Part shown: one piece after another, positions 33,442 through 54,271 of the stretch
Numbering within the stretch: position 1 is the stretch's first letter
Layout: every line of letters begins with the position of its first letter
Assembly: GCF_006715785.1 (NCBI RefSeq)
Contig: NZ_VFNX01000001.1
Span: 4,010,001-4,074,000 of the forward strand
Direction of reading: 5' to 3'
Length of the DNA stretch: 64,000 nt
Source: Streptomyces puniciscabiei
GTDB taxonomy: Bacteria; Actinomycetota; Actinomycetes; Streptomycetales; Streptomycetaceae
Translations under genes and position numbers: made by a program
The notes under the pieces: model-generated
Database searches by the model: none
The model's input: only the letters and a program-made list of their open reading frames with translations
What the model was told of the DNA's origin: nothing

Positions 33442-35106
33442 TTACCGCAGCACGCTCGACAGCAGCTTCGCCGCCTTGCGGACCTTCGGGCGGGCCACCT
33501 TCTGCACGACCGGGCGGATGACGCGGGCCGTGACTCCCACCGGCATCCAGCGGAGCTGCAGGCGGCCGGGGTTGCGGCCCTCCGGTTCGACGGTGAGCTC
33601 GTGCGGGGTCGCGCCGGAGCGGTACTCGATGCGGGCGGTGAGGGTGGGGAAGTCCGGAGGGGCCAGCAGGAGACCGGAGTTGGCCAGGCCCTGCTGCTGA
33701 AGGCGGACCAGGGGGTGCCGTACGCCCGCGAAGCCCTGCAGGGGCAGCGGGGCCTCGGTGAGGTCGAGGTGGACCGTGCCCTCGAAGACGCCGGGGCTGA
33801 CCGGGTCCAGGCGGAAGGGCACCGTCATGCGGCGGTTGCCCGGCGACAGGATCAGACCGGCGCGCTGCGGGCCGACGGGGAGACGCAGACCGGGGTCGTA
33901 CGTGCGGATGGCCAGCGTGAGGGAGGCTCCCCGGCCGGGCGTCAGCTCGACGATCTCGTGCCGGAAGAGCGCGCTCGGGAACGGGCGCGTGTCCAACTCC
34001 AGGTCGGACACGGCCAGTTCACGGCGTCCGCGGTCGGAGGAGGGCACGCTGTCGCCCCAGTACGGCACTCCCGTCGCGTCGGCCGTGACCTGCCGCGGCG
34101 CCACCGGATGCCCGAGCCCGCGTGCCGCGAGCCCGAGCTCGTCCAGCCGGCGTTCCCGCAGCAGCTCCAGCACCACCCGCTCCTGCCGGGGCAGCCGGAC
34201 GTACGCGCCGTCGGACAGCGTGTCCAGGTAAGGGTTCATGATGTCCGCGAAGGCGGCCAGCCACTCCTCGTCCCGGTAGGGCAGGTCGCCGGCGTACATC
34301 CGGAAGTCGTGCTTGAGGAACTTGTAGTCCTTGTCCTCGCGCAGCCCCGCGTGTCCGCTCTCCACCAGGAAGTCGTCGATCAGGCGCTGGACATGGACGC
34401 GGTCGCGGACGTTGGTGACCTTGTGCCGCTGGTTGGAGATCGAGGCCGCCGCGGCCGCCGCGTACGGGTCGATGTACCAGATGTACACCGGGTCCGGAAT
34501 GATCGTGAACGCCTTCGCCAGGCAGTACGACTGCGCCGAGAACAGCTGGTCCTCGTAGTGGATGCCCTCCGGGAAGCGGAGTTCGTGGCGGTCCAGGAAG
34601 GAGCGCGCGTACATCTTGCTCGTCGACAGGTGCTCGAACAGCAGGCGGGGGTCCGCGTCGATGCCCTCCACCGTGCGGCGCTCGGCGACGAGGTGCGGCA
34701 TCCACGTGGTGCGGCGGCCGGTGTCCACCCGGTGCCGGCGCACCGCGCCCATGGTGAAGTCCACCTCGCGCTCGCGGTGCGCGGCGAGCAGCAGCTCGAC
34801 CGCCCGCGGCGTCAGTTCGTCGTCGCTGTCGAGGAACATCAGATACGGCGCCCGGGCGATGTCGATGGCCCGGTTGCGCGGGGCGCTGCAGCCGCCGCTG
34901 TTCTCCGGCAGGCGGAGGTAGCGGACGCGGTCGTCCTGCGCCTCCAGCCGGCGTGCCACCTCGGGCGTGTTGTCCGTCGAGTGGTCGTCGCTGATGATGA
35001 TCTCGATGTTCGCGTGCGTCTGGGCGCGCAGCGAGGCGACCGCCCGGGGCAGGCGGGCGGCGTCGTTGTAGACGATGACCGTCACCGTCACGTCGGGGGT
35101 GGTCAT
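33442..35106 (-). CDS. glycosyltransferase family 2 with long C-terminal extension
   Basis: 554 residues. A GT-A domain occupies about the first 230 residues, with the nucleotide-binding start VTVTVIVYNDAARLPRAV, ISDDHSTDN and the metal-binding motif Asp93-Ser-Asp-Asp96 (MFLDSDDELTP). Residues from about 330 to the end form a beta-rich region of unknown function. It is cytoplasmic or peripheral. Its ATG overlaps the stop of the upstream TagF-like gene by 4 bases, so the two are co-translated. The same length and layout recur in the gene at 41567-43231, with which it is paralogous. Confidence 0.9.
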   Translation of the reverse strand: MTTPDVTVTVIVYNDAARLPRAVASLRAQTHANIEIIISDDHSTDNTPEVARRLEAQDDRVRYLRLPENSGGCSAPRNRAIDIARAPYLMFLDSDDELTPRAVELLLAAHREREVDFTMGAVRRHRVDTGRRTTWMPHLVAERRTVEGIDADPRLLFEHLSTSKMYARSFLDRHELRFPEGIHYEDQLFSAQSYCLAKAFTIIPDPVYIWYIDPYAAAAAASISNQRHKVTNVRDRVHVQRLIDDFLVESGHAGLREDKDYKFLKHDFRMYAGDLPYRDEEWLAAFADIMNPYLDTLSDGAYVRLPRQERVVLELLRERRLDELGLAARGLGHPVAPRQVTADATGVPYWGDSVPSSDRGRRELAVSDLELDTRPFPSALFRHEIVELTPGRGASLTLAIRTYDPGLRLPVGPQRAGLILSPGNRRMTVPFRLDPVSPGVFEGTVHLDLTEAPLPLQGFAGVRHPLVRLQQQGLANSGLLLAPPDFPTLTARIEYRSGATPHELTVEPEGRNPGRLQLRWMPVGVTARVIRPVVQKVARPKVRKAAKLLSSVLR

Positions 35107-37319
35107 GCCGAGGCCTCCTCGGGGGTCGGGGCGGGGGTGCGTTCCTCGAGCGGGATCACCGGTGGCAGGGACTCCTCCGGCTCGCCCAGGAACACCCGTC
35201 GTACGACCCGTTCGGCGGCGCGGCCGTCGTCGTACTCGCAGAACCGGCGCCGGAAGGCGGCCCGTGCCTTGGCCGCGCTCTCGTCACGCCAGGCGCCGGA
35301 GACGAAGATCTCCGTCAGCTCCTCCTGGGTGCGGGCGACCTGGCCGGGGTGGTCGGTCATGAGGTCGAAGTAGACGCCCCGGGTGGTCCGGTAGGTCTCC
35401 CAGTCGTCGGCGTAGACGACGATCGGGCGGTCGAGGTTGGCGTAGTCGAACATGATCGACGAGTAGTCCGTGACCAGCGCGTCGGCGGCCAGGCACAGCT
35501 CCTCGACGGGGTCGTAGGAGGAGACGTCGATGATCCGGCCGGAGCGGCGCAGGCCGGTCAGCGGGGAGGCGGCGCCGCCGTAGAAGTAGTGGGCGCGCAC
35601 CAGGAGCACGGTGTCCTCGCCGAGGCGGTCGGCGAGGGCCGCGAGGTCCAGGCGCGGGGTGAAGCCGGCCTCGTAGTCGCGGTGCGTGGGCGCGTACAGG
35701 ACGGCCGTCTTGCCGGGCGGGATGCCGAGGCGCTCGCGGGCGGCGCGGACGTCGGCGGCCGTGGCCGAGTAGAAGACGTCGTTGCGCGGGTAGCCGTAGT
35801 CCAGCGAGGTGTAGCGGGCCGGGTAGGCGCGCTCCCACATGCGGGTGGAGTGGCTGTTGGCGCTGACGCTGTAGTCCCACTTGTCGATGCGGGCCAGCAG
35901 GGCGTCGAAGTCCAGGCCCTTGGCGGCGGCCGGGTGCTCCATCTGGTCCAGGCCCATGCGCTTGAGCGGGGTGCCGTGGTGGGTCTGGAGGTGGATCGCG
36001 TCGGGGCGCTTGACCACCGCGTTGGGGAAGTTGACGTTGTTGACGAGGTACTTGGCGGTGGCCAGGGTCTCCCAGTAACGGCGGGTGCCGGGGATCACAT
36101 GGTCGGTGCCGGGCGGCAGCAGGGCCTCGTTGCTCTTCGACACCACCCACACCGGGTGGATGTGCGGGGCGAGTTCGCGGAGCTTGGCGGCGATCGCGGC
36201 CGGGTTGCAGGCCACTCCGCGCTCCCAGTAGGCGGCGAACACGGCCAGGTTCGGGTCGACCGGGCGGGTCAGGGCGCGGCGGTACTGCTGGTCGCGGAGC
36301 TTGGCGCCGACCTGCTTCTTCCGGGTCCGTACGGCCTTCTTGGCGGCGCGGCGGGTGCGGTTGGCGGCCTGGAACGCACGGTACTTGGTGTACGCGCCCT
36401 CCTCCAGCAGGGCGTGCCGTACGCCCTCCACGCCCGCCGGGTGCTCGTGGTTCTCGGGGCGCCAGCGGACCGCGGCCAGGGAGGCGCGGCGGAAGAACTC
36501 GCGGGCCACCGCGTCGGGCAGGTTCTCCCCGGCGAAGGTGCGCACGAGGTCGCGCATCATCAGGTCGTACAGCACCACGCGGGCGGCGCGGCGGTCCTTG
36601 GCGAGCGCGAGCACCGACTCGTAGCGCTCGATCAGGTCGAACCGGTCCTCGGGGGCGAGCGGCGGCAGGCTCTCGGGGCGCAGTTCGCGGCTTTCGTACG
36701 CCGCCTGGTTCAGGCAGGCGACACGGTCGGCGAGCAGCAGGGCGGCGTGGGCGGCCTGCGGTTCGTCGTCGGTGGTGAGGCGCTCCTCGTGGGCCCGCCA
36801 GAAGTCGGCGCGCAGGACCCGGTTGCCGAGCAGCGGGGTGAGGCGCAGCAGGTCGGCGGCCTCGTCCAGGGGCAGGCTCGCGCGGCCGACGGCGGCGAGG
36901 AGCCGGCCGTCGCGGGAGGGCGTGCCGGCGGTCTGCCAGGTGGTGGTGACGTGGTCGACGAGCAGAATATCCGCGCCCGTTACGCCATCGGGGTCAGTGG
37001 CGTCCAGCTCTGCGGTCCGCTCGGCGATCAGCCGCGCGGCGCCGGCCGGCAGGCTGTCCTTGGCGTGGACGAAGTGCAGCCAGCGGCCGGTGGCGCGGGC
37101 GGCGCCGGCGGCCCGGGCCGCCGCGTCACCGGTGCCGTCCGGCAGCGGTACGACGACCGTCTCGGGGGCGTGCCCTTCGGCGGCCTCCCGTGCCCAGTCA
37201 CCGACCGCCGCGACGATCACCTCGGCGTCGGACAGCGGGTGGGCCTCCAGAGAGTCCAGCAACTCTGTCAGATGCCCCTGTGCGTTCGGTCCGTAGACGA
37301 TGACGCTGAGTTGGGGCAT
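35103..37319 (-). CDS. TagF-like CDP-glycerol glycerophosphotransferase with degenerate GT2 N-terminus (copy 1)
   Basis: 738 residues from an ATG with AAGGAGT eight bases upstream. Residues 1-230 resemble a GT2 domain whose DxD motif has become HAKD (85-88), so it is probably not active as a glycosyltransferase. The C-terminal half is a CDP-glycerol glycerophosphotransferase with QTHHGTPLK (His448 at the position of the catalytic base), YAPTHRDYEAG, LVRAHYFY and VTDYSSIMFDYANLDRP. Such enzymes polymerise polyol-phosphate onto lipid-linked wall polymer precursors at the inner face of the membrane. Co-translated with the GT2 gene that follows it; TagG/TagH-like genes precede it. Confidence 0.88.
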   Translation of the reverse strand: MPQLSVIVYGPNAQGHLTELLDSLEAHPLSDAEVIVAAVGDWAREAAEGHAPETVVVPLPDGTGDAAARAAGAARATGRWLHFVHAKDSLPAGAARLIAERTAELDATDPDGVTGADILLVDHVTTTWQTAGTPSRDGRLLAAVGRASLPLDEAADLLRLTPLLGNRVLRADFWRAHEERLTTDDEPQAAHAALLLADRVACLNQAAYESRELRPESLPPLAPEDRFDLIERYESVLALAKDRRAARVVLYDLMMRDLVRTFAGENLPDAVAREFFRRASLAAVRWRPENHEHPAGVEGVRHALLEEGAYTKYRAFQAANRTRRAAKKAVRTRKKQVGAKLRDQQYRRALTRPVDPNLAVFAAYWERGVACNPAAIAAKLRELAPHIHPVWVVSKSNEALLPPGTDHVIPGTRRYWETLATAKYLVNNVNFPNAVVKRPDAIHLQTHHGTPLKRMGLDQMEHPAAAKGLDFDALLARIDKWDYSVSANSHSTRMWERAYPARYTSLDYGYPRNDVFYSATAADVRAARERLGIPPGKTAVLYAPTHRDYEAGFTPRLDLAALADRLGEDTVLLVRAHYFYGGAASPLTGLRRSGRIIDVSSYDPVEELCLAADALVTDYSSIMFDYANLDRPIVVYADDWETYRTTRGVYFDLMTDHPGQVARTQEELTEIFVSGAWRDESAAKARAAFRRRFCEYDDGRAAERVVRRVFLGEPEESLPPVIPLEERTPAPTPEEASA

Positions 37320-37467: not shown

Positions 37468-38412
37468 TTACGCCGCCTTCTTACCAGCGGCCTTCTTGTC
37501 GCTCTTGTCACCGGTGAAGGCCTCGTACTCCTTCATGACGTCCTCCGTCGGCCCGTCCATGCGCAGTTCGCCGCGCTCCAGCCAGATCGTCCGCTCGCAG
37601 GTGTCGCGGATCGACTTGTTGTTGTGGCTGACCAGGAAGACGGTACCCGCTGTCGCGCGCAGCTCGCGGATCCGTTCCTCGGAGCGCATCTGGAACCTGC
37701 GGTCACCGGTGGCCAGGGCCTCGTCGATCAGCAGCACGTCGTGGTCCTTGGCGGCGGCGATGGAGAAGCGGAGCCGGGCGGCCATACCGGAGGAGTACGT
37801 GCGCATCGGAAGGGTGATGAAGTCGCCCTTCTCGTTGATGCCGGAGAAGTCGACGATGTCCTGGTAGCGCTCCTTGACCTGCTCCCGGGACATGCCCATG
37901 GCGAGCCCGCCGAGGTAGACGTTGCGTTCGCCCGTGAGGTCGTTCATCAGGGCCGCGTTGACGCCGAGCAGGGAGGGCTGGCCGTGGGTGTAGATGTGGC
38001 CGTTCTCCACCGGCAGCAGGCCGGCGACGGCCTTGAGCAGCGTGGACTTGCCGGAGCCGTTGGTGCCGATCAGGCCGATCGCCTCACCCTTGTAGGCGAC
38101 GAAGGACACGTTCTTCACCGCGTGCACCCGGCGCACACCGGCCGCCTTCTCCGCCTGCTTGCGGCGCAGGATGCGGTTGAGGGCGGCGGTGGCGGAGCCG
38201 CGGCCGGAACCGGTGCCGTTGACGCGGTAGACGATGTCGACGCCGTCGCAGACGACGGTGGGGATCCTCTCCGCCTTGGACAGACGCTCGAGCCTCTCCC
38301 GCATCATGCGCTCGTCGGGAGTCTCCTCGGCGGTCCCGTCGGGGTTCGCGGGGTTCGCGGAGCGCTCGGGGTTCTTGGGGTTCTCGGGGTTCCCGGGAGT
38401 CTGCTCAGCCAC
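37468..38412 (-). CDS. TagH-like polysaccharide/teichoic acid ABC transporter ATP-binding protein
   Basis: 314 residues from a GTG with GGAGAGG upstream. Walker A is GLIGTNGSGKSTLL, the ABC signature YSSGMAARL, Walker B VLLIDEALATGD. The N-terminus carries repeated Asn-Pro pairs encoded by a run of ggggttc units, absent from typical TagH. The ABC module matches the TagH/RfbE group that exports lipid-linked polymers and pairs with the permease gene, which it overlaps by 8 bases. The C-terminus is Lys/Ala-rich. It is followed by the TagF-like gene after a 148-base gap. Confidence 0.93.
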   Translation of the reverse strand: MAEQTPGNPENPKNPERSANPANPDGTAEETPDERMMRERLERLSKAERIPTVVCDGVDIVYRVNGTGSGRGSATAALNRILRRKQAEKAAGVRRVHAVKNVSFVAYKGEAIGLIGTNGSGKSTLLKAVAGLLPVENGHIYTHGQPSLLGVNAALMNDLTGERNVYLGGLAMGMSREQVKERYQDIVDFSGINEKGDFITLPMRTYSSGMAARLRFSIAAAKDHDVLLIDEALATGDRRFQMRSEERIRELRATAGTVFLVSHNNKSIRDTCERTIWLERGELRMDGPTEDVMKEYEAFTGDKSDKKAAGKKAA

Positions 38413-39319
38413 GGCCGTACCTCTCCTCAGCCTTCCAGAAGTAGATGAAGCCGCCGACGCCGGCGACCAGCGCCCAGCCGATCGCCGTCGGCCACACGTG
38501 CGGGGGCAGCTGCTTGGCGTGGAAGCTCTTGATCAGGGCGAAGCGCATGAGGTCGATGTAGACCGCGGCCGGGTTGGTCTCGAGCAGGACCGTGACGACG
38601 TGCGGCAGGTGGTCCTTCTTGGTGAGCGAGTGGATGCTCCACATCACGCCGGACACGTACATCCAGGTGCGCAGGACGAACGGCATCAGCTGGGCGATGT
38701 CCGGGGTCTTGGCGCCCATCCGCGCCATGATCATCGCCATGCCGGCGTTGAACACGAACTGCAGGATCAGCGCGGGGAGCACCAGCAGCCAGGAGACGGA
38801 GATCGGCACGCCCAGACTGAGCAGGATGACGACCAGCGCGGCCATCGAGAACAGCAGCTGCTGCAGCTGCTGGATGCAGAAGGAGATCGGCAGGGCGGCG
38901 CGCGGGAAGTGCAGGGCGCGGACCAGGCCCAGGTTGCCGGAGATCGCCCGGGTGCCGACCTGGATCGAGCTCTGCGTGAACGTCCAGACGAACACGCCGG
39001 TGACCAGGAACGGGATGTAGTCCGGGACGCCCTTCTTGGTGCCCAGCAGCACGCCGAAGATGAAGTAGTAGACCGCCGCGTTCAGCAGCGGGGTCATGAC
39101 CTGCCAGATCTGGCCGAGCTTCGCCTCGCTGTACTGGGCGGTGAGCTTGGCGGTGGCGAAGGCGGTGATGAAGTGGCGCCGGGCCCACAGCTGGCGGACG
39201 TACTCCGGCAGGGAGGGGCGGGCGCCGCTGACCGTCAGGCCGTGCCGGGCGGCCAGTGCCGCGAGGTCGTCGTCGGCCGGGGCCTGGGTGGGGGGCGGTG
39301 TGTCGAGGACCTGGCTCAC
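38405..39319 (-). CDS. TagG-like polysaccharide/teichoic acid ABC transporter permease
   Basis: 304 residues from the GTG at 39319 (VSQVLDTPPPT); a second GTG at 39385 would add 22 residues. Six predicted transmembrane helices in the ABC-2 layout follow a conserved cytoplasmic entry LWARRHFITAFATAKLTAQY. With the ATPase gene downstream it forms a TagGH-like exporter moving finished wall polymer across the membrane. The region upstream (39385-39520) is shared with the divergent TetR gene, which may regulate it. Confidence 0.9.
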   Translation of the reverse strand: MSQVLDTPPPTQAPADDDLAALAARHGLTVSGARPSLPEYVRQLWARRHFITAFATAKLTAQYSEAKLGQIWQVMTPLLNAAVYYFIFGVLLGTKKGVPDYIPFLVTGVFVWTFTQSSIQVGTRAISGNLGLVRALHFPRAALPISFCIQQLQQLLFSMAALVVILLSLGVPISVSWLLVLPALILQFVFNAGMAMIMARMGAKTPDIAQLMPFVLRTWMYVSGVMWSIHSLTKKDHLPHVVTVLLETNPAAVYIDLMRFALIKSFHAKQLPPHVWPTAIGWALVAGVGGFIYFWKAEERYGRG

Positions 39320-40445: not shown

Positions 40446-41426
40446 CTACGACCGCGCCGCCTCCGGGTGGTGGTGTACCCAGCCCTCCCAGGCCGAGGTG
40501 ATCATGTCCTGGACGTCGTACTTGGCCTGCCAGCCCAGCTCGGTGGCGATGCGCGCGGCGGAGGCGACGACGCGTGCGGGGTCGCCGGGGCGGCGCGCGG
40601 TGACGGTCGGGGCGCGGTCGTAGCCGGTGACCGCGTTGATGCGGTCGATCATCTCGCGCACCGACACACCCTCGCCGCGGCCGATGTTGAGGGTCAGGTC
40701 GGTGCCGGGGGAGGAGGCCAGGGCGCGGGCGACGGTGACGTGGGCCTCGGCCAGGTCGACCACATGGATGTAGTCACGCACGCAGGTGCCGTCCGGCGTC
40801 GGGTAGTCGTCGCCGAAGATGCGCGGCGCCGCGCCCTCGGTGAGCTTCTCGAAGACCATGGGGACGAGATTGAACACGCCGGTGTCGGCGTATTCGGGGG
40901 CGGCCGCGCCCGCCACGTTGAAGTAGCGCAGGGACGCCGTGGACATGCCGGTCGCCCGGCCCGTGGCGCGCACCAGCCACTCGCCGGCCAGCTTGGTCTC
41001 CCCGTAGGGGGACATCGGCCGGCAGGGGGTCTCCTCGGTCACCAGGTCGACGTCCGGCATGCCGTAGACGGCGGCCGAGGAGGAGAAGACGAAGGCCCCG
41101 ATCTCCGCCCGCGTCACCGCCTCCAGAAGGACCCGCAGGCCCTCGACGTTCTCCCGGTAGTAGTGCAGCGGGCGCTCCACCGACTCGCCCACCTGCTTCT
41201 TCGCCGCCAGATGCACGACCCCGCTGATCTCGTGCTCGGCGAGCGTGCGGGCGACAAGCTCCGCGTCCAGGACCGAGCCCCGCACCAGCGGGACCTCCGT
41301 CGGCACGCGCTCGGCGACGCCCGTGGTCAGGTCGTCGTAGACGACCGTGCGCTCACCCGCCTCGGTCATCGCCCGTACGACGTGTGCCCCGATGTATCCG
41401 GCACCGCCGGTGATCAGCCAGGTCAT
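40446..41426 (-). CDS. galE: UDP-glucose 4-epimerase
   Basis: 326 residues of the extended short-chain dehydrogenase family: NAD-binding GGAGYIGAHV at the N-terminus, catalytic SSSAAVYG with YGETK (Tyr-xxx-Lys), and the sugar-binding region FNVAGAAAPEYADTGV. GAGGAG lies before the ATG. It interconverts UDP-glucose and UDP-galactose and so supplies hexose donors for the surrounding glycosyltransferases. Related epimerases acting on N-acetylated sugars look much alike, so the exact substrate is uncertain. Confidence 0.9.
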   Translation of the reverse strand: MTWLITGGAGYIGAHVVRAMTEAGERTVVYDDLTTGVAERVPTEVPLVRGSVLDAELVARTLAEHEISGVVHLAAKKQVGESVERPLHYYRENVEGLRVLLEAVTRAEIGAFVFSSSAAVYGMPDVDLVTEETPCRPMSPYGETKLAGEWLVRATGRATGMSTASLRYFNVAGAAAPEYADTGVFNLVPMVFEKLTEGAAPRIFGDDYPTPDGTCVRDYIHVVDLAEAHVTVARALASSPGTDLTLNIGRGEGVSVREMIDRINAVTGYDRAPTVTARRPGDPARVVASAARIATELGWQAKYDVQDMITSAWEGWVHHHPEAARS

Positions 41427-41472: not shown

Positions 41473-41577
41473 CAGTGGGCGTCTCTCAGTGAATCAGTGG
41501 GTGTCCCGCCGGGTCAGCGGGTGTCCCGGTGAAGGGGCGGGTGTCCCGTGTGAACCGGCGGGTGTCTCAGTGAAGCA
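41473..41577. repeat. five tandem copies of a 20-21-bp repeat
   Basis: gggcgtctctcagtgaa, gggtgtcccgccgggtc, gggtgtcccggtgaag, gggtgtcccgtgtgaa and gggtgtctcagtgaagc start about every 20-21 bases (cores at 41480, 41501, 41521, 41541, 41562). The array fills the gap between the galE-like gene and the 3' end of the GT2 gene, and the last unit covers that gene's stop codon. Confidence 0.75.
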
Positions 41578-43275: not shown

Positions 43276-44544
43276 TTAAGAGAGACTTAGAGCCCGGTCC
43301 GGAAGACGGCCGGAATCGGGTCGAGGTTCCCTTGTTTGCAGGGTCTTTTCCTTCGAATGTGTCGAACGCCACAACCGGAAGAGCGACAGCGCGGACGCGC
43401 CCGCCAGGATCCCGTTGCGGGCCAGCATCAGCAGACAGCCGGTCCAGGTGCCGTCGACCACCTCGCCGTAGTTCATCGGGAACACCAGGGCGCTCAGCGC
43501 CGCCGCCGCCACGACCAGCGCCGCCACCGGCCGCTGGCTGGTGTGCCGCGAGGTCAGGCACACCGCCGCGAGACCGAGCAGCCAGATCATGTACTGCGGG
43601 CTGATCACCCGGCTGGTGACCGTGAACAGCAGCACCGCGCACAGCGCCGCGTCGAACGGCGTGGCCTCGCTCCACCGCCGCGCCCGCGCCCGCCACAGCA
43701 CCAGCAGCGCGAACGCGGCCGCCGTCAGCGCGAGGGAGACGGTGGCGACGGCCTGCACATGCGGGCCGACCAGCTCGGTGGCGCCGTACCGGTAGCGCGC
43801 GCGGCCCGGCCAGCCGGCGTGCCGCGCCAGGTTCAGTGCCGTACCGCCGAGCGACTCGATCTGCACGCCCCGCCCGCCCTGCTCCCGCAGAAAGGCCAGG
43901 GGGTGGTCGAACAGCGCGGCGAGCGCGCCGAAGGCGACGGCTCCGGCGGCCGCCGCCCACCCCCACGCCCGGCGCGTATCCCGCCCCCGGGGCGTGCCCA
44001 GAAGCATCAGCGCCGGCCATACCTTCACCAGTGCGCCCAGCGCTCCCCAGACCCCGGCCGCGCGCGGGGAGCGGCCCACGGCCAGCAGCGAGAGCACGGC
44101 CAGGGCGGTGACCTGGACGTCGTACCGGGCGAGCGGGAGGTGCAGCAGCAGCGGCAGGCCGGCCGTCCACAGGACCGCGCCGAGCGGGCTGCGCCCGGGA
44201 AGCCTGCCCGCGCGGGTCAGCGCCGCCGTGACCAGCGCGTCCACGGCCAGCGTGAGCACCACGAACGCCTGGAAGTACGTCAGCCACGGCAGCAGGCGCG
44301 GCGCCAGCAGCACCACGCCGGCGCCCGGCGGGTACTGCCACAGCGTGTCGTGCGCCGGGAACGAGCCGTGTGCGAGGACGCCGTACCAGTCGCCGTACAG
44401 CCACCACACCTCACGCGCCACCGTGCCCCCGCCCAGCAGCGGGGCACTGTCGTGGGTGAGCAGCCACAGCATCAGCGCGCGGGTGGCCAGCCAGAGGGCG
44501 GTGACGCCGGGGACCGGACCGGAGTTGACACGGAGACGGTTCAT
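43276..44544 (-). CDS. GT87-like (DUF2029) polyprenyl-mannose-type membrane glycosyltransferase
   Basis: 422 residues from the ATG at 44544 (MNRLRVNSGPVPG); an in-frame ATG at 44577 would add 11 residues. Ten or so transmembrane helices, with the signature of the GT87/DUF2029 family in the first periplasmic loop (DTLWQYPPGAGVVLLAPRLL) and the conserved ALVKVWPALMLLG. Such enzymes use polyprenyl-phosphate-linked sugars and act on the outside of the membrane. It is divergent from the GT39-like gene. Confidence 0.8.
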   Translation of the reverse strand: MNRLRVNSGPVPGVTALWLATRALMLWLLTHDSAPLLGGGTVAREVWWLYGDWYGVLAHGSFPAHDTLWQYPPGAGVVLLAPRLLPWLTYFQAFVVLTLAVDALVTAALTRAGRLPGRSPLGAVLWTAGLPLLLHLPLARYDVQVTALAVLSLLAVGRSPRAAGVWGALGALVKVWPALMLLGTPRGRDTRRAWGWAAAAGAVAFGALAALFDHPLAFLREQGGRGVQIESLGGTALNLARHAGWPGRARYRYGATELVGPHVQAVATVSLALTAAAFALLVLWRARARRWSEATPFDAALCAVLLFTVTSRVISPQYMIWLLGLAAVCLTSRHTSQRPVAALVVAAAALSALVFPMNYGEVVDGTWTGCLLMLARNGILAGASALSLFRLWRSTHSKEKTLQTREPRPDSGRLPDRALSLS

Positions 44545-44639: not shown

Positions 44640-46421
44640 GTGGTGAACGTCGGGCTTCCTGTGGAACGGCAGTCGCGCAGGGCGGCTGCGACGGCAGCCG
44701 GCGCGCCGGCCGGCGGGGCGGGGCGCGTGCCGCGCGGTCGACGGGCCCGGATCCACCGCCTGCTCGCCGTGGGGATGCCCGCGCTCGTGATGCTCGTGGT
44801 CGGGCTCTGGGGGCTCGACCGGGGCGGCATGTGGCGCGACGAGGCCGTCAGCTTCCAGGTCGGGCGGCGCACGGTGCCGCAGATCTGGCTGCTGCTGCAC
44901 GACGTGGACGCCGTGCACGGCCTGTACTACCTCCTCGTGCACACCGTCCTCGCCGTCCATCCCGGCGAGGTCGTGCTGCGGCTGCCGTCGGTGTGCGCGG
45001 CGGCGGGGACGGCCGCGCTGGTGGCGGCGCTCGGCACCCGGCTGTCCCGGCCGCGCGTCGGGCTGTGGGCCGGGCTGCTGTACGCCGTCGCGCCGATGGC
45101 CGGCCACTATGCGCAGGAGGGCCGCTCGTACGCCCTGGTCGCCGCCGGGGCCGCCTTGGCGACACTGCTGCTCGTCCGGGCCGTGCGCTGCGGTTCCGCG
45201 CGTTCCTGGGCGGCGTACGGGGCCGTCCTCGGCCTCACCTGCTGGCTGCACGAGTTCGCGGTGCTGCTGCTGTGCGCCCACGCGGGAGCGCTGGCGTCGG
45301 CCCGGGTCGGGGGGAGGGTGTGGCGCCGGTGGGCGTGCGCGGCGGGCGGGGTCGTGGTGTCGCTGGTGCCGATGGCCGTGGTGTCGCGGGGGCAGGCGGC
45401 GCAGGTGGCATGGCTGCGGAGGCCCACGGTGGTGACGGCGGAAGGGCTGGTGCGGGGGTTTCTCGGGCCCTCGGGCGGGGTGTACGCGGTGTGTCTGGGC
45501 CTTGCGCTGGCCGGGTCGGCCGGGCTGGTGGGGCGGCGGGGGGAAATCACCCTCGCGGGGGTGGCGTTGCCGTTGACCGTGGTGCCGCCCGCGGTGCTGA
45601 TGCTGGCCTCCCAGGTCTCGCCGCTGTACGTCGACCGGTACGTGCTGTACGCGCTGAGCGGGGCGCCGTTGCTGGTGGCGGCGGGGGCCGAGCGGGTGGC
45701 CGGGGTGGTGGGGCGGCTGCGGCTGAGCGGCCGGCCGGGAAGGTGCTCTCCGCCGCAGCCGGGGAACGACCGCTCACCGGGGCCGAACGCCGCACGCGAG
45801 GACGGGCGGCCGAAAAGGTGCCCTTCGCCGCCGCCCCGCGCGCTGTCGCGATCCCCCCTCGTCGCCCTCGCCGGCGTCTTCGCCGTCGCCCTCGCGTTCC
45901 TGCATCAGCTCCCCCTCCTCCGGGCGGACCGGAACCCCGGGGCCCGGCCCGATGATCTCGGTGCTGTTTCGCGGGTCGTGGCGCGGGAGTTGGGGCCCGG
46001 CGACGCCGTGGTGTTCCTGCCGGCACACGCACGGAACGTGGCTCTGACCTACCCGGGGGCGTTCCGGGGCGCGCGGGATGTGGCCTTGGGGGAGGGGGCC
46101 GCCGGGTCGGGGACGCTGTACGGGCGGGAGGCCGGGGCCCGGGAGGTACGGCGGCGGATGGCGCGGCTGGACCGGGTGTGGGTCGTGGCGGACCCGGATC
46201 TGCTCGCCGGGCGCTGGATCCCCCGCAACCACACCGAGCGGGCCAAACTCGCCGTGCTGCGGCGGTACTTCACCGGGCGGGAAGAGGTGCTGCGGGGCGG
46301 CATGGCCGTACGGCTGTACGTCCGCAAGCCCGTGAAGCCCCTGCCCGCGAAGCCCCTGCCCGCGCCGGCTAGTTCTCCTCGCGCCCCGCTGTCACGGCCG
46401 CCGCGTCCAGCGCGGTCGTGA
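44640..46421 (+). CDS. GT39-like (ArnT/PMT-type) membrane glycosyltransferase
   Basis: 593 residues from a GTG at 44640 (MVNVGLPVERQ; the next codon is also GTG). The first membrane helix is followed by DRGGMWRDEAVSFQVG, the acidic motif of GT-C enzymes that bind polyprenyl-linked sugar donors. There are about ten helices, then a hydrophilic insert near residues 360-400 rich in Pro/Arg (GRPGRCSPPQPGNDRSPGPN) and a soluble C-terminal domain. The 3' end overlaps the convergent MarR/OhrR gene by 53 bases. Confidence 0.8.
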   Translation: MVNVGLPVERQSRRAAATAAGAPAGGAGRVPRGRRARIHRLLAVGMPALVMLVVGLWGLDRGGMWRDEAVSFQVGRRTVPQIWLLLHDVDAVHGLYYLLVHTVLAVHPGEVVLRLPSVCAAAGTAALVAALGTRLSRPRVGLWAGLLYAVAPMAGHYAQEGRSYALVAAGAALATLLLVRAVRCGSARSWAAYGAVLGLTCWLHEFAVLLLCAHAGALASARVGGRVWRRWACAAGGVVVSLVPMAVVSRGQAAQVAWLRRPTVVTAEGLVRGFLGPSGGVYAVCLGLALAGSAGLVGRRGEITLAGVALPLTVVPPAVLMLASQVSPLYVDRYVLYALSGAPLLVAAGAERVAGVVGRLRLSGRPGRCSPPQPGNDRSPGPNAAREDGRPKRCPSPPPRALSRSPLVALAGVFAVALAFLHQLPLLRADRNPGARPDDLGAVSRVVARELGPGDAVVFLPAHARNVALTYPGAFRGARDVALGEGAAGSGTLYGREAGAREVRRRMARLDRVWVVADPDLLAGRWIPRNHTERAKLAVLRRYFTGREEVLRGGMAVRLYVRKPVKPLPAKPLPAPASSPRAPLSRPPRPARS

Positions 46422-47420: not shown

Positions 47421-49643
47421 CTACGCCGACGCCAGCGCGCCCGGGCCCACCGCCTGGCCCGGGATCCGGGCCGCGCCGGGGCCGGTCATCGGCTCGCCCA
47501 GCAGCAGCGTCCGTACGACGCGCTCGGCGGCCCGGCCGTCGTCGAACTCGCAGAACCGCTCCCTGAACCGGGCCCGCAGCCGCGCCGACTCCTCGTCCCG
47601 CCAGGACCCCGAGGCGAACAGCCGGGCCAGCTCGCGGTAGGAGCGCGCGACATGGCCCGGCGGTTCGGCGGTGATGTCGAAGTAGGCGCCCCGGCTCGCG
47701 GTGTACGCGGGCCAGTCGTCGGCGTGCACCACGATCGGCCGGTCCAGGTTGGCGTAGTCGAACATCACGGCCGAGTAGTCGGTGACCAGCACGTCGGCCG
47801 CGAGCAGGACGTCCTCCACGCGCGGCTCGTCGGTCGCGTCGACCAGGATCCCGCGCCGGTCCAGCTCGGTCAGGCCCATGCCCCGCGCGGGACCGGTCGC
47901 CAGTGACGGGTGCAGCCGGACCACCAGGGTGAGCCCCGCGCCCACGCACTCGCTCAGGTCCGCCGCGAAGCGGTCCAGGTCGATCCGGTCCACGTGCCCG
48001 CTGCGGCGGTAGTCCCGGCGGGTCGGGGCGTACAGCACCACCGTGTCCGTCTCCGGGATGCCGTACCGCCGACGGAAGTCGCTCTCGGCGCCGTTCACCA
48101 GCACGTCGTTGCGCGGGCTGCCGGTGCGCAGCGAGGTGAAGTGGCAGGGGTAGGCGCGCTCCCAGACCAGCTCCGAGTGGCGGTTGGCGACCAGGCTGTA
48201 GTCCCAGCGGTCGGCCCGGCGCAGCATCTGCGGCACGTCGAAGCCGAGCCGGGCGCCCGGCTTGTCCAGCAGATCCGCGCCCATGTACTTCAGCGGGGTG
48301 CCCTGGTGGGTCTGGATGTGCACGCTGCCGGGCCGCTTGGCGAGCGTGCCGGGCCAGTTGACGTCGTTCACGAAGAACGTGGCCCGCGCCGCGACCTCCA
48401 GATAGCGCCGGGAACCCACGATCACGTGCTCCACCCCGGGCGGCAGCCGGTCGGCGCTCTCCTCGTCCTTCACCACCCACACCCCGCGCAGCTGCGGGGC
48501 GATCTCCCGGGCCTTGGCGTACACGGCGGCCGGGTCGCCGAGCACGCCCCGGTGCGAGGACGCCGAGTAGACGACCAGGTGCGGGTCCAGCGGACGGAGC
48601 GTGTGCACGGCCGCCCAGCCGGCGCGGGCCCGGGCGGTGGCCGCGCCGCCTGCCAGAGCGGCCAGCCGTGCCGCCTCCTGCCCGGCCCGCGCCGCCTGCC
48701 GCCTGATCCGGTACGCCGTCCAGGAGCCCTCCAGCAGCCTGGTCTCGCCGTCGGCCGGGGCACCCTGCGCCGGCCGGTGGCGCCGCGACATCTCACGCGT
48801 ACGCCGGAAGAACTCGGCCTTGTCGGCGGGCGGCAGCCGGTCGGGCTTGGCCAGGATGTCCAGGCAGTGCTCGCCCATCTTGCGGTGCAGGTACGGCCGC
48901 CAGTGCGCGAGCTCCGGACGCTGCTCGACGAACGCGAAGACCCGCTCGTACTGGTCGTGGATGTCGAAGTGCTTCCGGCTGGTCGTGGACAGGATGCTGC
49001 CCTGCCGGCGCTGCCGGTAGTTCAGGCAGATCCGGTCCAGCGTGGCGATCCGCCGTGCGCTGAGCATGACCGGGAAGGTCCAGGGCGTGTCCTCGTAGTA
49101 GCCGGGCGGGAACTCGAAGCCCTCCGCCTTCACGAACGCCCGCCGGTAGACCTTGTTCCACACCACCATCAGCAGGTCGAGGATCTGCGGGTACTCGTCC
49201 GCGGTGAAGGTGCCCGGGCCGGCCTCGGCGAGCACCTCGGCCAGGGCGTTGCGCCGGGTGCCGCCCCACCAGTAGGTGCGCGCGTAGTCGAAGACCAGCA
49301 CGTCCGGGTCCCCGGCCTCGGCCAGCCGGTCGGCGATCGCCCGCAGCGCGCCCGGGGTGAGGGTGTCGTCGCTGTCCAGGAAGAACAGGTAGTCGCCGGT
49401 GGCGTGCGGCAGCCCGGCGTTGCGCGCCCGGCCGAGGCCCACGTTCTCCGGCAGGTGCAGCACCTTCACGCGCGGGTCGCGCTCGGCGTACTCGTCGAGG
49501 ATGGCGCCGCAGCCGTCGGGGGAGCGGTCGTCCACGGCGATCAGCTCGAAGTCGTTGAAGGACTGCAGCAGCACCGAGTCCAGGCACTCGCGCAGAAAGC
49601 CCTGCACCTTGAAGCAGGGCACGATCAGACTGAAGCGGGGCAC
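47421..49643 (-). CDS. GT2-TagF-like fusion protein (copy 2)
   Basis: 740 residues. N-terminal GT2 domain: MPRFSLIVPCFKVQGFLREC, IAVDDRSPDGC and metal-binding Asp90-Ser-Asp-Asp93. C-terminal TagF-like domain with Gln447 in place of the catalytic His (QTHQGTPLKYMG), then YAPTRRDY, LVVRLHPSLA and VTDYSAVMFDYANLDRP. It is therefore a bifunctional enzyme by layout, but with a changed active site in the polymerase half. Six bases separate it from copy 3, upstream on the same strand; copy 4 lies further upstream. Confidence 0.88.
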   Translation of the reverse strand: MPRFSLIVPCFKVQGFLRECLDSVLLQSFNDFELIAVDDRSPDGCGAILDEYAERDPRVKVLHLPENVGLGRARNAGLPHATGDYLFFLDSDDTLTPGALRAIADRLAEAGDPDVLVFDYARTYWWGGTRRNALAEVLAEAGPGTFTADEYPQILDLLMVVWNKVYRRAFVKAEGFEFPPGYYEDTPWTFPVMLSARRIATLDRICLNYRQRRQGSILSTTSRKHFDIHDQYERVFAFVEQRPELAHWRPYLHRKMGEHCLDILAKPDRLPPADKAEFFRRTREMSRRHRPAQGAPADGETRLLEGSWTAYRIRRQAARAGQEAARLAALAGGAATARARAGWAAVHTLRPLDPHLVVYSASSHRGVLGDPAAVYAKAREIAPQLRGVWVVKDEESADRLPPGVEHVIVGSRRYLEVAARATFFVNDVNWPGTLAKRPGSVHIQTHQGTPLKYMGADLLDKPGARLGFDVPQMLRRADRWDYSLVANRHSELVWERAYPCHFTSLRTGSPRNDVLVNGAESDFRRRYGIPETDTVVLYAPTRRDYRRSGHVDRIDLDRFAADLSECVGAGLTLVVRLHPSLATGPARGMGLTELDRRGILVDATDEPRVEDVLLAADVLVTDYSAVMFDYANLDRPIVVHADDWPAYTASRGAYFDITAEPPGHVARSYRELARLFASGSWRDEESARLRARFRERFCEFDDGRAAERVVRTLLLGEPMTGPGAARIPGQAVGPGALASA

Positions 49644-49649
49644 GGCGGG

Positions 49650-51851
49650 TCAGCTCCTCACGAGGGTCGCGGCGGCGGGGGCGGGGACGCGCCGCGCCGG
49701 CGGGATCACGGGCGGGAGAGCCTCCGGCGGCTCGCCGAGCAGCACCCGCCGTACGACGCGTTCGGCGGCCCGGCCGTCGTCGAACTCGCAGAACCGCTCC
49801 CGGAACGCCGCCCGCAGCGCCGCGGCCTGCTCACCCGCGTACGAGCCGTCCCGGAAGACGGCGGCCAGCTCCTGAGGGGTGCGCGCGACCGGTCCGGGCG
49901 GTTCGGCCATCAGGTCGAAGTAGACGCCCCGGGTCTCCCGGTAGACGTCCCAGTCGTCGGCGTACACCACGATCGGCCGGTCCAGGTTGGCGTAGTCGAA
50001 CATGATCGAGGAGTAGTCGGTGACCAGCGCGTCCGCCGCCAGGCACACGTCCTCGGCCGAGCGGTGCGCGGTGACGTCGATGATCCGGCCGTCGCCGCGG
50101 CCCGGCCCCCGGTCGTAGAAGTAGTGGGCGCGCAGCAGCACGACCACGTCCTCGCCGGCCGCCGCGCAGAACGCCTCCAGGTCCAGGCCGGGCTCGAAGC
50201 CGGTGTGGTGGTCGCGGTGGGTCGGGGCGTAGAGGACGGCCGTGCTGCCCTCGGGGACGCCCAGCTCCCGCCGGACGCGGGCCACGTCCTCGCCGGTCGC
50301 CGTGTAGTAGACGTCGTTGCGCGGATAGCCGTACTCCAGCGCCTCCCAGGAGCCGGGGAAGGCGCGCTCCCACATCTGGGTGGAGTGGCGGTTGGAGGAG
50401 AGGTTGAAGTCCCAGCGGTCGACCCGGCCCAGCAGTTTCGTGTAGCTGCCGGACTGCGCGGCCACCACCGGGTACGTCGACTGGTCCACGCCCATCGTCT
50501 TCAGCGGGGTGCCGTGCTGGGTCTGCAGGTGCACACTGCCGGGCCGCTTGACGATGCCCTCGGCGAAGTTGGCGTTGTTCACCAGGTACTTGGCGCGGGC
50601 CAGCACCTCCCAGTAGCGGCGGGAGCCGATCACCGCGTACTCCACGTCCTCCGGCATCGTGTGCGCCTGGCCGACCTCGACGAGGAACACCGAGCGGATG
50701 TGCGGGGCGAGTTCGCGGGCCTTGGCGTGGATCGCGGCCGGGTTGCAGGTGTACCCCCGGCCCCAGTAGGCGCAGTACACGGCCAGGTTCTCGTCGAGCG
50801 GGCGGTGCAGGTCGCGGGCGTAGCGCAGCCGGGTGCGCACCGCGCGCGGGCGCGGCAGGCTCTCGGCGGTGTGCACGGCCAGCTGGTTGGCGCCACGCAG
50901 CGCCCGGAACGCGCTGTACGCCCCGGTCGCCAGCAGCCGGTGCTGCACGCCCAGGCTGCCGCCCGGGGCCCGGAAGCCGGCCGGGCGGTGGCGCCGGTAG
51001 AGGCGGGCGGCGCGGCGGAAGAACGCCCGGTGCCCGGACGGCAGCCGCTCCGGCCGGGACGCGGTCTTCAGGACCTGGGTGAACAGCTGCTCGAAGAGCG
51101 CGCGCGTCCGCTCGGCGGGCAGCTCCCGCTCGGCGGCCCGGGTCAGCACGAGCTCCACCTGGCCGAGCAGGTCGTGCTGGTGCGGCCCCGGCAGGTTCAG
51201 CCGGCTGCCCTGCCGGCGCAGCCGGTGGCGTACCACGACCCGGCGCAGCACCGCGATCCGCCCGGCCGCGAGCGTGGTCAGCCCGCCCCAGCCCAGGTCG
51301 GTGAAGTGGCTGTCGGGAAAGGCGAGTTCGTGCTCGGTGAGGAAGTCGCGGCGGTAGGCCGCGCTCCACGCCGGGAGCTGGACGCCGGTCAGCTCCGGCA
51401 GGTCGGCGGGGGCGAAGGCACCCTTCGGCGCTCCGGCGAACAGCGGCGCGGCCGGGTTGGTCGGCTCGCCCTCCCACCAGGGGGCGCGCTCGTGCTCGGC
51501 GTAGAGGACGTCGACGCCGGCGGTTTCGGTCAGCCGGGCGTCCAGCGCCGCGAGGGCACCCGGCAGCAGCAGGTCGTCGCCGTCCAGGAACAGCACATAC
51601 GCGCCGGTCGCCGCACGGATCCCCGCGTTGCGTGCCCCGCTCAGACCGGCGGACGGCGGCGAGTGGACCGGGGTCACCCGGGAGTCCCGCTCCGTGTGTC
51701 CGGCGGCCACGGCGCCGGCCGGGGAGTCGGGGGCGTCGCAGACCGGGATCAGCTGCAGATCGCCGAAGGACTGGCCGAGAACCGAGTCCAGCGCCTGGGA
51801 CAGCCGGGCGACGACCCCATGGGAGGGGACGATGATGCTGAAGCGGGGCAT
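49650..51851 (-). CDS. GT2-TagF-like fusion protein (copy 3)
   Basis: 733 residues from the ATG at 51851 (MPRFSIIVPSHGVVARLSQA). The GT2 half keeps Asp-Gly-Asp-Asp (YVLFLDGDDLLLPG) but has VCDAPDSPAG where paralogues have VDDxSPDG, so nucleotide binding may differ. The TagF-like half has His446 in QTQHGTPLKTMG, YAPTHRDHHTG, LLRAHYFY and VTDYSSIMFDYANLDRP. It resembles copy 1 in these motifs. AAAGAG lies before the start. The 173-base gap to copy 4 is noted as non-coding. Confidence 0.88.
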   Translation of the reverse strand: MPRFSIIVPSHGVVARLSQALDSVLGQSFGDLQLIPVCDAPDSPAGAVAAGHTERDSRVTPVHSPPSAGLSGARNAGIRAATGAYVLFLDGDDLLLPGALAALDARLTETAGVDVLYAEHERAPWWEGEPTNPAAPLFAGAPKGAFAPADLPELTGVQLPAWSAAYRRDFLTEHELAFPDSHFTDLGWGGLTTLAAGRIAVLRRVVVRHRLRRQGSRLNLPGPHQHDLLGQVELVLTRAAERELPAERTRALFEQLFTQVLKTASRPERLPSGHRAFFRRAARLYRRHRPAGFRAPGGSLGVQHRLLATGAYSAFRALRGANQLAVHTAESLPRPRAVRTRLRYARDLHRPLDENLAVYCAYWGRGYTCNPAAIHAKARELAPHIRSVFLVEVGQAHTMPEDVEYAVIGSRRYWEVLARAKYLVNNANFAEGIVKRPGSVHLQTQHGTPLKTMGVDQSTYPVVAAQSGSYTKLLGRVDRWDFNLSSNRHSTQMWERAFPGSWEALEYGYPRNDVYYTATGEDVARVRRELGVPEGSTAVLYAPTHRDHHTGFEPGLDLEAFCAAAGEDVVVLLRAHYFYDRGPGRGDGRIIDVTAHRSAEDVCLAADALVTDYSSIMFDYANLDRPIVVYADDWDVYRETRGVYFDLMAEPPGPVARTPQELAAVFRDGSYAGEQAAALRAAFRERFCEFDDGRAAERVVRRVLLGEPPEALPPVIPPARRVPAPAAATLVRS

Positions 51852-52024
51852 TCTGCTCTTTCTGTTGTCTTGCGGACGCGTGTCGTGCGGAGGCGTGTCC
51901 AGACGACAGGGCCTGGGCCGGCCCCGCGACCGGGCCGCCCCGCCGGACGCCAGGTGGACGGCCGGCTCGGGGTCGGCCGCGTCGAGCCGAGGGGCACGGG
52001 AACTCCCGAAGAGATCAACGCCCT

Positions 52025-54271
52025 TCAGCGCCTCTCGGTGACGGGGAGGGAACCGGAAGGTTGCGGCACGGTGGCGGTGGCCAGCGGGGAGCGCGCACAG
52101 GCGGCCGACGGCACCGGCTTGCGCTGCTCCAGCGGCACCACCGGCGGCAGCCCCGACCCGCCCAGCACCACATGCCGTGCGACCCGCTCGGCGGCGCGTC
52201 CGTCGTCGTACGGGCAGAACCGCTCCCGGAACGCCGCCCGCAGCTGGGCCGAGCGCGAGCCGCACCAGTGCCCGGTCGCGAAGATGTCGATCAGCTCGTC
52301 CTCGCTGCGCGCGACCGCGCCCGGCGGGAAGGCACGCAGGTCGAAGTAGGTCCCACGGGCCGCCTGGTACGCCTCCCAGTCGCCGGTGTGCACCACGATC
52401 GGCCGGTCCAGGTTGGCGTAGTCGAACATGATCGACGAGTAGTCGGTGAGGAGGGCGTCCGAGGCCAGACACAGCGACTGCACGCTCGGATGGTCACCGA
52501 CGTCGACGATCCGGCCGCCCGTGGCCAGGGGGCCGCCGCGGGTGGGGTGCGGGCGGGCCAGGATCACGAAGCGCGGGCCGAGGCGGCGCACGATCCGCTC
52601 CAGGTCCAGCAGCGGACGCTGGGTGCGCAGATAGTCCCGGTAGGTCGGCGCGTACAGGATCGCGACCGCGCCCTCCGGGATGCCCAGCGACTGGCGCAGC
52701 CGGGCCACGTCCGCCGAGGTCGCCCGCTGGAAGACGTCGTTGCGCGGCGACCCGTACTCCAGGGTGCGGTACCGGCCCGGGAGGACGCGCTCCCAGGTCA
52801 GGGTCGAGTGCCGGTTGCCGGACAGGACGACGTCCCACTGGTCGACGCCGCGCAGCAGCCGGGCGAAGTCGGTGTCACGGGCCGCCGCCGGGCGCTCCTG
52901 GAGGTCCAGGCCCATGTGCCCCAGCGGGGTGCCCTGCCGGGTCTGGACCAGGATCTGCCCGGGGCGCTTGCGCAGGCCCGGGTCCAGGACGTCGTCGGTG
53001 ACCAGGTACTTGGCGCGGGCCAGCGCCGTCCAGTAGGCGGCGGTGCCGGGCCGTAGCCGGCGCGGCCCGGGCGGGACCCTGTGCTGGTGCTCGGGACGGG
53101 CGATCCACGCGGTGCGGATGTGCGGGACATGGGTGCGGAACGCCTCCTCCAGGGCACCCGGGTCGCCGCCGTGGCCCCGGCCCGCACCGGAGCCGAACAC
53201 CGCCCGGTCGGCGCGCACGGGCAGCCGCAACTGGATCCGGTAGTGCAGCCGCAGCACGCCGGTCCGCACGGCCCGGGCCAGCTTCACCACCGCCTTGAAC
53301 GTACGCCGGCGCACGGCCGAGACCAGCTGGAACGCGCGGAACGTGCGGTGCAGGCCGAAGCGGACCAGGATGGCACGGCGCCGCATCCGGGCTCCGGGGA
53401 CGCGGTGGCGGCGGTAGTGGGCGCGCGCCCGGCGCAGGAACTCGCCGTGACTGCCGCGCGGCAGCCGGTCGCGCTTGGTGAACACGGTGGCGTAGTGGTC
53501 GATCATCCGGCGGAACAACTCAGGCCGCCAGCACGCCAGTTCGGGATGCTCCTCGACGTACGCGAAGACCCGGTCGTACTGCTCGAACAGATCGAAGTGC
53601 CTCGCGCTGGTGGTGCCGAGGATGTTGCCCTGCCGGCGCTGCCGGTAGTGCACGCACACCCGGTCCAGGGTGCTGATCGACCCCGCCGTCATCAGCACCG
53701 GGAAGGTCCAGGGGGTGTCCTCGTAGTAGCCCGGCGGGAAGGTGAAGCCGTGCTCCTCCACGAACTCCCGCCGGTACGCCTTGTTCCAGGCCACCATCAG
53801 CACCCTGAGCAGCCCCGGCCGGTCCTCCAGACGGAACGGCGCCGCGCTCTGCTCGGTGAGCTGGCCGGCGAGCTGGTTGCGCACCACCCGGCCGTCCCAG
53901 TAGGTGCGCGCGTAGTCGTACACCAGGACGTCCGGCTCGCCGGTCTCCTTGATCCGGTCGGCGATCGAGCGCAGCGCGTCCGGGGTGAGCGTGTCGTCGC
54001 TGTCGAGGAAGACCAGGTAGTCACCGGTCGCCTCGGCCATCCCCGCGTTCCGGGCCCGCCCGAGCCCCTGGTTCTCGGCCAGGTGCACGGGTCGCACCCG
54101 CGCGTCCCGGTCCGCGTACTCGTCGATGATCGCCCCGCAGGCGTCCGGGGAGCAGTCGTCCACGGCGATCAGTTCCAGATCGGGGTACGACTGCGAGAGC
54201 ACCGAGTCCAGGCACTCGGAGAGGTACGCCTGGACCTTGTACGCGGGGACAATGACACTGAACCTGGGCAA
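52025..54271 (-). CDS. GT2-TagF-like fusion protein (copy 4)
   Basis: 748 residues starting MPRFSVIVPAYKVQAYLSEC; the start codon is TTG at 54269-54271, supported by identity of the N-terminus with copies 2 and 3. GT2 half: IAVDDCSPDAC and DxD in VFLDSDDTLTPD. TagF-like half: Gln446 in QTRQGTPLGHMG, YAPTYRDY, VILARPHPTRGG, LTDYSSIMFDYANLDRP. The QGTP form and the YYEDTPWTFPV segment pair it with copy 2. It is the most upstream gene of the fusion cluster (copies 4, 3, 2) on the minus strand. Confidence 0.85.
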   Translation of the reverse strand: MPRFSVIVPAYKVQAYLSECLDSVLSQSYPDLELIAVDDCSPDACGAIIDEYADRDARVRPVHLAENQGLGRARNAGMAEATGDYLVFLDSDDTLTPDALRSIADRIKETGEPDVLVYDYARTYWDGRVVRNQLAGQLTEQSAAPFRLEDRPGLLRVLMVAWNKAYRREFVEEHGFTFPPGYYEDTPWTFPVLMTAGSISTLDRVCVHYRQRRQGNILGTTSARHFDLFEQYDRVFAYVEEHPELACWRPELFRRMIDHYATVFTKRDRLPRGSHGEFLRRARAHYRRHRVPGARMRRRAILVRFGLHRTFRAFQLVSAVRRRTFKAVVKLARAVRTGVLRLHYRIQLRLPVRADRAVFGSGAGRGHGGDPGALEEAFRTHVPHIRTAWIARPEHQHRVPPGPRRLRPGTAAYWTALARAKYLVTDDVLDPGLRKRPGQILVQTRQGTPLGHMGLDLQERPAAARDTDFARLLRGVDQWDVVLSGNRHSTLTWERVLPGRYRTLEYGSPRNDVFQRATSADVARLRQSLGIPEGAVAILYAPTYRDYLRTQRPLLDLERIVRRLGPRFVILARPHPTRGGPLATGGRIVDVGDHPSVQSLCLASDALLTDYSSIMFDYANLDRPIVVHTGDWEAYQAARGTYFDLRAFPPGAVARSEDELIDIFATGHWCGSRSAQLRAAFRERFCPYDDGRAAERVARHVVLGGSGLPPVVPLEQRKPVPSAACARSPLATATVPQPSGSLPVTERR

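Follow-up and report, generated by a model that had tools for sequence, protein, structure and literature searches.

The window analysed here is a 64,000-nucleotide (nt) stretch of the genome of Streptomyces puniciscabiei (contig NZ_VFNX01000001.1, positions 4,010,001 to 4,074,000), which carries four minus-strand genes for proteins that join an N-terminal GT2 glycosyltransferase domain to a C-terminal TagF-like cytidine diphosphate (CDP)-glycerol glycerophosphotransferase domain. Sequence comparison indicates that the GT2 site and the TagF site vary inversely across such fusions. We favour, with a little better than even confidence, the view that the four proteins are teichoic-acid synthases that have subfunctionalised: glycerol phosphate would be transferred by copies 1 and 3, and sugar by copies 2 and 4. 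The simplest reading would be that Streptomyces spreads the steps of a two-domain enzyme over partner proteins. This interpretation is based on the active-site motifs, the conservation of orthologues, the reciprocal pattern, a contrast in domain rates, gene coupling and the predicted folds of copies 1 and 2.

Active sites of the four fusions

All four open reading frames of an earlier note on this DNA were recovered with their motifs. Copy 1 (35103-37319) starts with ATG and encodes 738 residues (752 with a longer start), copy 2 (47421-49643) starts with GTG and encodes 740, copy 3 (49650-51851) encodes 733, and copy 4 (52025-54271) starts with TTG and encodes 748. A profile search of the 9.1-Mb genome matched PF04464 to copies 1-4 only, over the full domain, with 450.6, 375.7, 443.4 and 373.4 bits, respectively (cut-off 22.1). 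The corresponding scores for PF00535 (GT2) are 20.4, 123.7, 65.1 and 133.8 bits, that of copy 1 lying below the cut-off of 23.3.

The motif residue in which the copies differ (448, 447, 446 and 446 in copies 1-4) aligns by phmmer to H444 of Staphylococcus epidermidis TagF, for which structures are available (PDB 3l7i-3l7m). It is His in copies 1 (H448) and 3 (H446), whereas copy 2 has Gln447 and copy 4 Gln446 (QTRQGTPLG); the numbers given earlier for copies 1 and 4 stand, and those for copies 2 and 3 had been interchanged. The second difference, RAHYFY in copies 1 and 3 against RLHP in copy 2 and RPHP in copy 4, is correct as described, and its His, present in all four copies, aligns to H584 of TagF. 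In TagF, H444 is the proposed base and H584 contacts the pyrophosphate. With the Gln matched to H444 and this second His to H584, the idea that the catalytic His lies elsewhere is ruled out, and the division into two active-site types is right on the TagF side.

The Gln of copy 2 is a lasting feature of its relatives. In the best 120 of 3444 matched homologues of copy 2, the H444 position holds Gln in 115 and His in none, the remaining five reading QSTP, RSTP or QCTP, and RLHP is kept in all 120. These five (P0035, P0045, P0046, P0061 and P0092) have also lost the Gly from the GTP loop, a further departure of the site. A precomputed table lists the GT2 model as well in 120/120 of them, and the automatic name 'bifunctional glycosyltransferase/CDP-glycerol:glycerophosphate glycerophosphotransferase' occurs in this set. 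Among the best 120 homologues listed for copy 1, HGTP is found in 120 and DxD in none, and PF04464 is the sole domain tabulated in 119.

Two wider samples were aligned. The genus sample comes from a search of 61 genomes of the same genus, the window's own included, with 60 regions hand-chosen among the matches listed; its alignment holds 136 sequences (132 distinct ones from the loci and the four window copies), from which 102 fusions of 640-800 residues that have letters in the key columns were taken for the count and 34 sequences of other architecture, or pieces, were omitted. The larger set adds 80 named Streptomyces loci, with 247 sequences, of which 230 were used (16 of 650 residues or less and one unassigned sequence were omitted), and 332 sequences reduce to 321 after identical cores are merged. 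Some genomes are present in both samples. In the genus sample the TagF site was scored as altered when H444 or H584 was changed; in the 321-sequence tally H444 alone represents the TagF side.

Copy-2-type proteins have Q 79, R 9, L 4 and H 0 at the H444 position (92 distinct sequences), which rules out a sequencing artefact or chance, and they keep H584 in 92/92. Both His residues are found in 12/12 copy-1-type and 91/91 copy-3-type sequences. The copy-2 type has thus lost the H444 His throughout, whereas the copy-4 type is mixed: 35 of its 78 distinct sequences retain it, and 20 of the 43 without it have no aligned H584 either. The Gln of copy 4 is, on this distribution, one of several lineage-specific losses. 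Copy-4-type proteins without the His depart broadly from the TagF pattern (K449 kept in 25%, T546 in 32% and H584 in 52%). In the copy-2 type, where the base is lost in 96/96, further changes are fixed, e.g. at TagF positions 427, 441 and 603.

The earlier note had examined the TagF domain only. On the GT2 side, copies 2 and 4 display canonical DxD and ED motifs (VDD, FLDSDD and YED in copy 2), and copy 1 has lost both, with FVHAKD in place of FLDSDD and no ED. The GT2 site of copy 3 is remodelled (VCD...P), DGDD being kept and ED replaced by TD. The Asp of ED is the catalytic base in GT2 enzymes such as TarS and TarP. DxD and ED are each absent from 12/12 copy-1-type sequences; both occur in 92/92 of the copy-2 type, a retention that is partly ascertained because the 80 named loci were seeded with two GT2-domain peptides of this type, the counted motif columns lying outside the seed peptides. 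ED is kept in 77/78 copy-4-type sequences. Copies 1 and 4 therefore give the picture of loss, copies 2 and 3 that of a controlled remodelling. In a Streptomyces enzyme resembling TarS, exchange of the predicted catalytic Asp is reported to abolish toxin sensitivity (PMC13274773).

When the two sites are tallied together, the genus sample contains 37 fusions with both sites canonical, 38 with only the GT2 site altered, 27 with only the TagF site altered and none with both altered. The 321 distinct fusions divide into 66 with both sites kept, 115 with only GT2 altered, 139 with only H444 lost and one with both altered. A Fisher test of the inverse pattern is extreme, but it ignores kinship. An event tree was therefore built without the key columns, with a midpoint root and with gains costed above losses. 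Five His losses are placed on it, all on branches with an intact GT2 site, GT2-altered branches making up 58% of the His-bearing branch length (p 0.014). Six fusions outside the four types, L034_12311, L045_11946, L056_12164, L057_557 and L058_457 (663-719 residues) and L046_5196, are likewise GT2-altered and TagF-canonical, which hints at further instances of this split.

Proposed division of labour and competing explanations

The proposed ancestor would have carried an N-terminal GT-A glycosyltransferase (TarS/TarP/RmlT-like) and a C-terminal TagF-like CDP-glycerol glycerophosphotransferase, and would have been duplicated and subfunctionalised in Streptomyces with one canonical active site retained per copy. 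CDP-glycerol would be the donor from which copies 1 and 3 transfer glycerol phosphate, priming probably falling to one and elongation to the other, and copies 2 and 4 would add a sugar from a nucleotide sugar onto the growing poly(glycerol phosphate). Copy 3 would be produced together with copy 2, and copy 1 with a TarP-like GT2 protein encoded beside it (33442-35106); the partners would work in trans on a single lipid-linked chain, to be exported by the TagGH-like transporter encoded nearby. The altered domains, since they retain their fold and are conserved, probably have a role in chain binding or assembly. In this scheme the activities, the sugar identity, the assignment of priming and elongation, joint translation and a physical complex are inferred from sequence.

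The earlier note had offered that copies 2 and 4 are inactive as polymerases, act as primases or capping enzymes, or use a different donor. Inactivity as glycerol-phosphate polymerases is the best supported of these, and the others are less so: a split into glycosyltransferase-only and glycerol-phosphate-transferase-only proteins is favoured because the GT2 site is canonical in copies 2 and 4 and not in copies 1 and 3. The evidence does not favour another polyol donor, as Pro at TagF position 447 is kept in all four copies and in 321/321 distinct sequences, and CDP-ribitol as the main donor is rejected on the same ground. In TagF, P447 is described as marking glycerol-phosphate transferases, Gly standing there in ribitol enzymes (PMC10299916).

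Gene coupling is consistent with partnership. Copy 3 stops only 6 nt before the GTG start of copy 2 (gap 49644-49649, minus strand), so translational coupling of the two is probable. Across the 80 named loci, copy-3-type and copy-2-type genes co-occur in 80/80 and lie 1-8 nt apart, from stop to start, in 77/80; the copy-2-type starts were inferred from protein alignment and are GTG in 75/80. The order copy-4, copy-3, copy-2 type is found in 71/80 loci, 12 of which continue with a copy-1-type gene and one with another relative; eight loci have copy-3 and copy-2 types without a copy-4 type, and in the remaining locus two copy-3-type genes stand with another relative. The TarP-like stand-alone GT2 gene (33442-35106, minus strand, 554 residues) keeps HYEDQLF and matches TarP (6h1j) with an E-value of 1.5e-23, and its ATG shares 4 nt with the end of the copy 1 gene, stop codon included. 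An overlapping GT2 start follows copy-1-type or nearly related genes in 12/15 loci (by 4 nt in 10 and 1 nt in 2), the other three loci ending at the copy-1-type gene. Given the copy 3-copy 2 gap and the copy 1-TarP-like overlap, both canonical glycerol-phosphate enzymes directly precede an enzyme with a GT2 site. This arrangement makes it highly unlikely that His-type and Gln-type enzymes serve separate wall polymers without cooperating, even though several glycopolymers are reported on Streptomyces walls (PMC13274773).

The rates of the two domains also differ among the types. In the genus sample, which was not seeded, the ratio of N- to C-terminal domain divergence (N/C) is 1.80 for the copy-1 type, 1.40 for the copy-3 type, 1.01 for the copy-2 type, 0.96 for the other fusions in which both sites are canonical and 0.76 for the copy-4 type (0.85 with and 0.70 without the His, six each). 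The contrast between copy-3 and copy-2 types is 1.37-fold (1.15-1.72) over 16 matched genomes with the peptide region excluded, and copy-3-type N/C exceeds copy-2-type N/C in 89/120 genome pairs. In the larger set, which includes the loci seeded with GT2 peptides, copy-2-type N/C is 0.73 and the contrast 2.11-fold (1.88-2.41). The statement that the rates cross over fully had to be softened, as the unseeded contrast is smaller and the copy-2 type does not fall below canonical fusions. Constraint is clearly weaker on the GT2 domains of copies 1 and 3 and somewhat weaker on the copy 4 TagF domain. Median ratios of nonsynonymous to synonymous substitution (dN/dS) are below 1 in every domain, and N exceeds C in copy-1 and copy-3 types only.

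Plain decay would hold that the altered domains are roleless, dying remnants and that reciprocity only reveals which domain is still needed. It fits the TagF domains of the copy-4 type, with their repeated losses and many missing residues. For the other three types, however, the altered domains are conserved, with median dN/dS of 0.35-0.45 and mean pairwise divergence of 22-27%; those of copies 1 and 2 retain their fold in predicted models, and 231/247 sequences of the named loci exceed 650 residues, so that few in this set have lost a whole domain. We regard decay as an improbable account of the locus.

Several observations weigh against subfunctionalisation as we propose it. The statement that no protein has both sites altered holds in the genus sample (0/102) and is broken by L124, L202 and L208, the latter two being Streptomyces sequences from a sample of the 30 best-scoring loci that included non-Streptomyces fusions. 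On the event tree the GT2 side amounts to one deep event and one tip, and the converse test is uninformative (p 0.65). Over the TagF-domain positions invariant in copy-1, copy-3 and canonical types, the copy-2 type retains the matches of R511, N512, D513, R582, H584, D622 and Y623 in 100% and of K449 and S624 in 98%; several of these residues presumably line the donor pocket. In the unseeded sample its TagF domain shows no measurable relaxation relative to canonical fusions (N/C 1.01 vs 0.96), and its dN/dS ratio (0.264/0.354) resembles theirs (0.487/0.609). It also carries a His near the base, at TagF position 443, in 96/96. The GT2 domain of the copy-3 type keeps DxD in 90/91 and the Asp of ED (as TD in 88/91), and may for that reason be active with a changed specificity; the suggestion that it is dead was softened accordingly. 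Cps7A, moreover, is described as an active glycerol-phosphate transferase with Tyr in place of H444, so that loss of this His does not prove inactivity (PMC11666461).

A rival account is neofunctionalisation: the remodelled TagF domain of copy 2 and GT2 domain of copy 3 would both be active, but with an altered chemistry. Copy 2, for example, could be a low-turnover primase or a transferase to another acceptor, acting through the Gln, through a neighbouring His or without a general base. The Cps7A precedent, the retained invariant residues with H584, the absence of clear relaxation, the kept DxD and Asp, and a His at TagF position 441 in 87/96 copy-2-type sequences besides that at 443 are in its favour. 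Yet the base position of the copy-2 type drifts among Q, R and L (79/9/4 of 92), unlike a new specific role, and 5 of the best 120 copy 2 homologues have lost the loop Gly as well. The His at 443 also occurs in 12/12 copy-1-type sequences and 20/32 canonical fusions and so is not a new base, and at 441 copy 2 itself has Gln. Neofunctionalisation is therefore judged rather unlikely. The conservation of its TagF domain nevertheless leaves room for another activity of copy 2, and a residual or priming activity is possible.

A stronger form of subfunctionalisation, offered tentatively and with more doubt than belief, would make copies 3 and 2 an obligate heteromer in which each subunit pairs a live active site with a pseudo-site. 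The glycerol-phosphate site still live in one subunit would then face the sugar site still live in its partner, and the two conserved pseudo-sites, able as before to bind donor or chain, would hold the growing polymer. Such an enzyme might be a natural cross-braced two-step polymerase that arose from a duplicated bifunctional enzyme by reciprocal inactivation, copy 1 and the TarP-like GT2 forming a second pair.

Should the proposed division of labour be true, it would give four wall-polymer genes of an important antibiotic-producing genus a testable role each and account for several 'TagF' genes being retained in these bacteria. It would also supply natural pseudo-domains with which to probe how a disabled transferase domain affects chain binding and chain length. 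Automatic 'bifunctional' names may overstate the abilities of each protein.

Origin and relation to known enzymes

Among the 30 best-scoring loci, all five full-length fusions from outside Streptomyces (other families of the class) have both sites canonical, and the bifunctional form is hence the likely ancestor. The fusions, with their GT2 domain joined to a TagF domain, differ from the wall teichoic acid glycosyltransferases TarS, TarP and RmlT, which have no TagF domain; TarS and TarP act on ribitol phosphate. S. epidermidis TagF has both His residues, of which that at H444 is absent from copies 2 and 4; the H444N variant of TagF, solved after a CDP-glycerol soak according to the entry titles, resembles the natural state of these two copies. 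By locus order, SCO2981-SCO2983 and SCO2997 of Streptomyces coelicolor are the probable orthologous locus, and SCO2997 is reportedly, by the title of a paper, a TagF homologue tied to sporulation. These genes are listed as wall teichoic acid glycosyltransferases (PMC3937824).

A close likeness is found in Actinobacillus, where Cps1B (GT-A and TagF-like) and Cps3D/Cps7D (TagF-like and GT-B) hold glycosyltransferase and polyol- or hexose-phosphate transferase sites on one polypeptide. Cps1B and Cps7D are reported to need the equivalents of H444 and H584 to make polymer, and their single-domain (half-dead) mutants to regain synthesis in trans when mixed (PMC5974469). Separated activities of Bcs3 are likewise described as functioning in trans (PMC10299916), and a two-domain enzyme of this kind from C. 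jejuni as alternating glycerol phosphate and galactose (PMC11924219). In Cps1B and Cps3D/Cps7D both sites are intact naturally and were split by mutation; the split in Streptomyces is natural and lies in separate genes. Trans-complementing, half-dead TagF-like polymerases have thus been made in the laboratory, and the locus suggests that evolution did likewise and fixed the outcome in many Streptomyces species. The transition transferase Cps7A, a PF04464 enzyme with Tyr94 at the H444 position, lacks the His like copies 2 and 4; it primes capsule linkers, its activity is proven, and the cited account, in the part used here, describes no GT2 domain (PMC11666461). A search of the open-access literature found no published report of the motif change or of a natural active-site split, and the finding is a new arrangement of known parts.

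Neighbouring genes

The first four genes given here, all between copies 1 and 2, are also on the minus strand. A TagH-like ATPase of an ATP-binding cassette (ABC) transporter, putatively for polymer export (37468-38412), scores 183.5 bits with the TagH model against a cut-off of 320. The adjacent ABC-2 permease is TagG/Wzm-like (38405-39319; start uncertain, the reading frame extending to 39385) and is closest to the galactan export (Wzm) model, below its cut-off. A member of the NAD-dependent sugar epimerase family (GalE-like, 40446-41426) possibly supplies a sugar nucleotide, and another GT2 glycosyltransferase with an uncertain start lies at 41567-43126. In or beside the cluster, the genes at 43276-44544, 44775-46421 and 31654-33165 comprise GT87-type and PMT-like membrane glycosyltransferases and one protein without a Pfam match.

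A phage search returned 112 records, all below 60% identity. In the genome, TagA-type PF03808 is represented by one gene, and the candidate glycerol-3-phosphate cytidylyltransferase (TagD-like) scores 65.7 against a cut-off of 165.4. Loci L178 and L211, from the same genome and outside the window, contain a gene resembling glycerol-3-phosphate cytidylyltransferase, with a score short of the model cut-off, and a second gene of IspD type, the domain of which just passes the D-ribitol-5-phosphate cytidylyltransferase model (168.1 vs 166).

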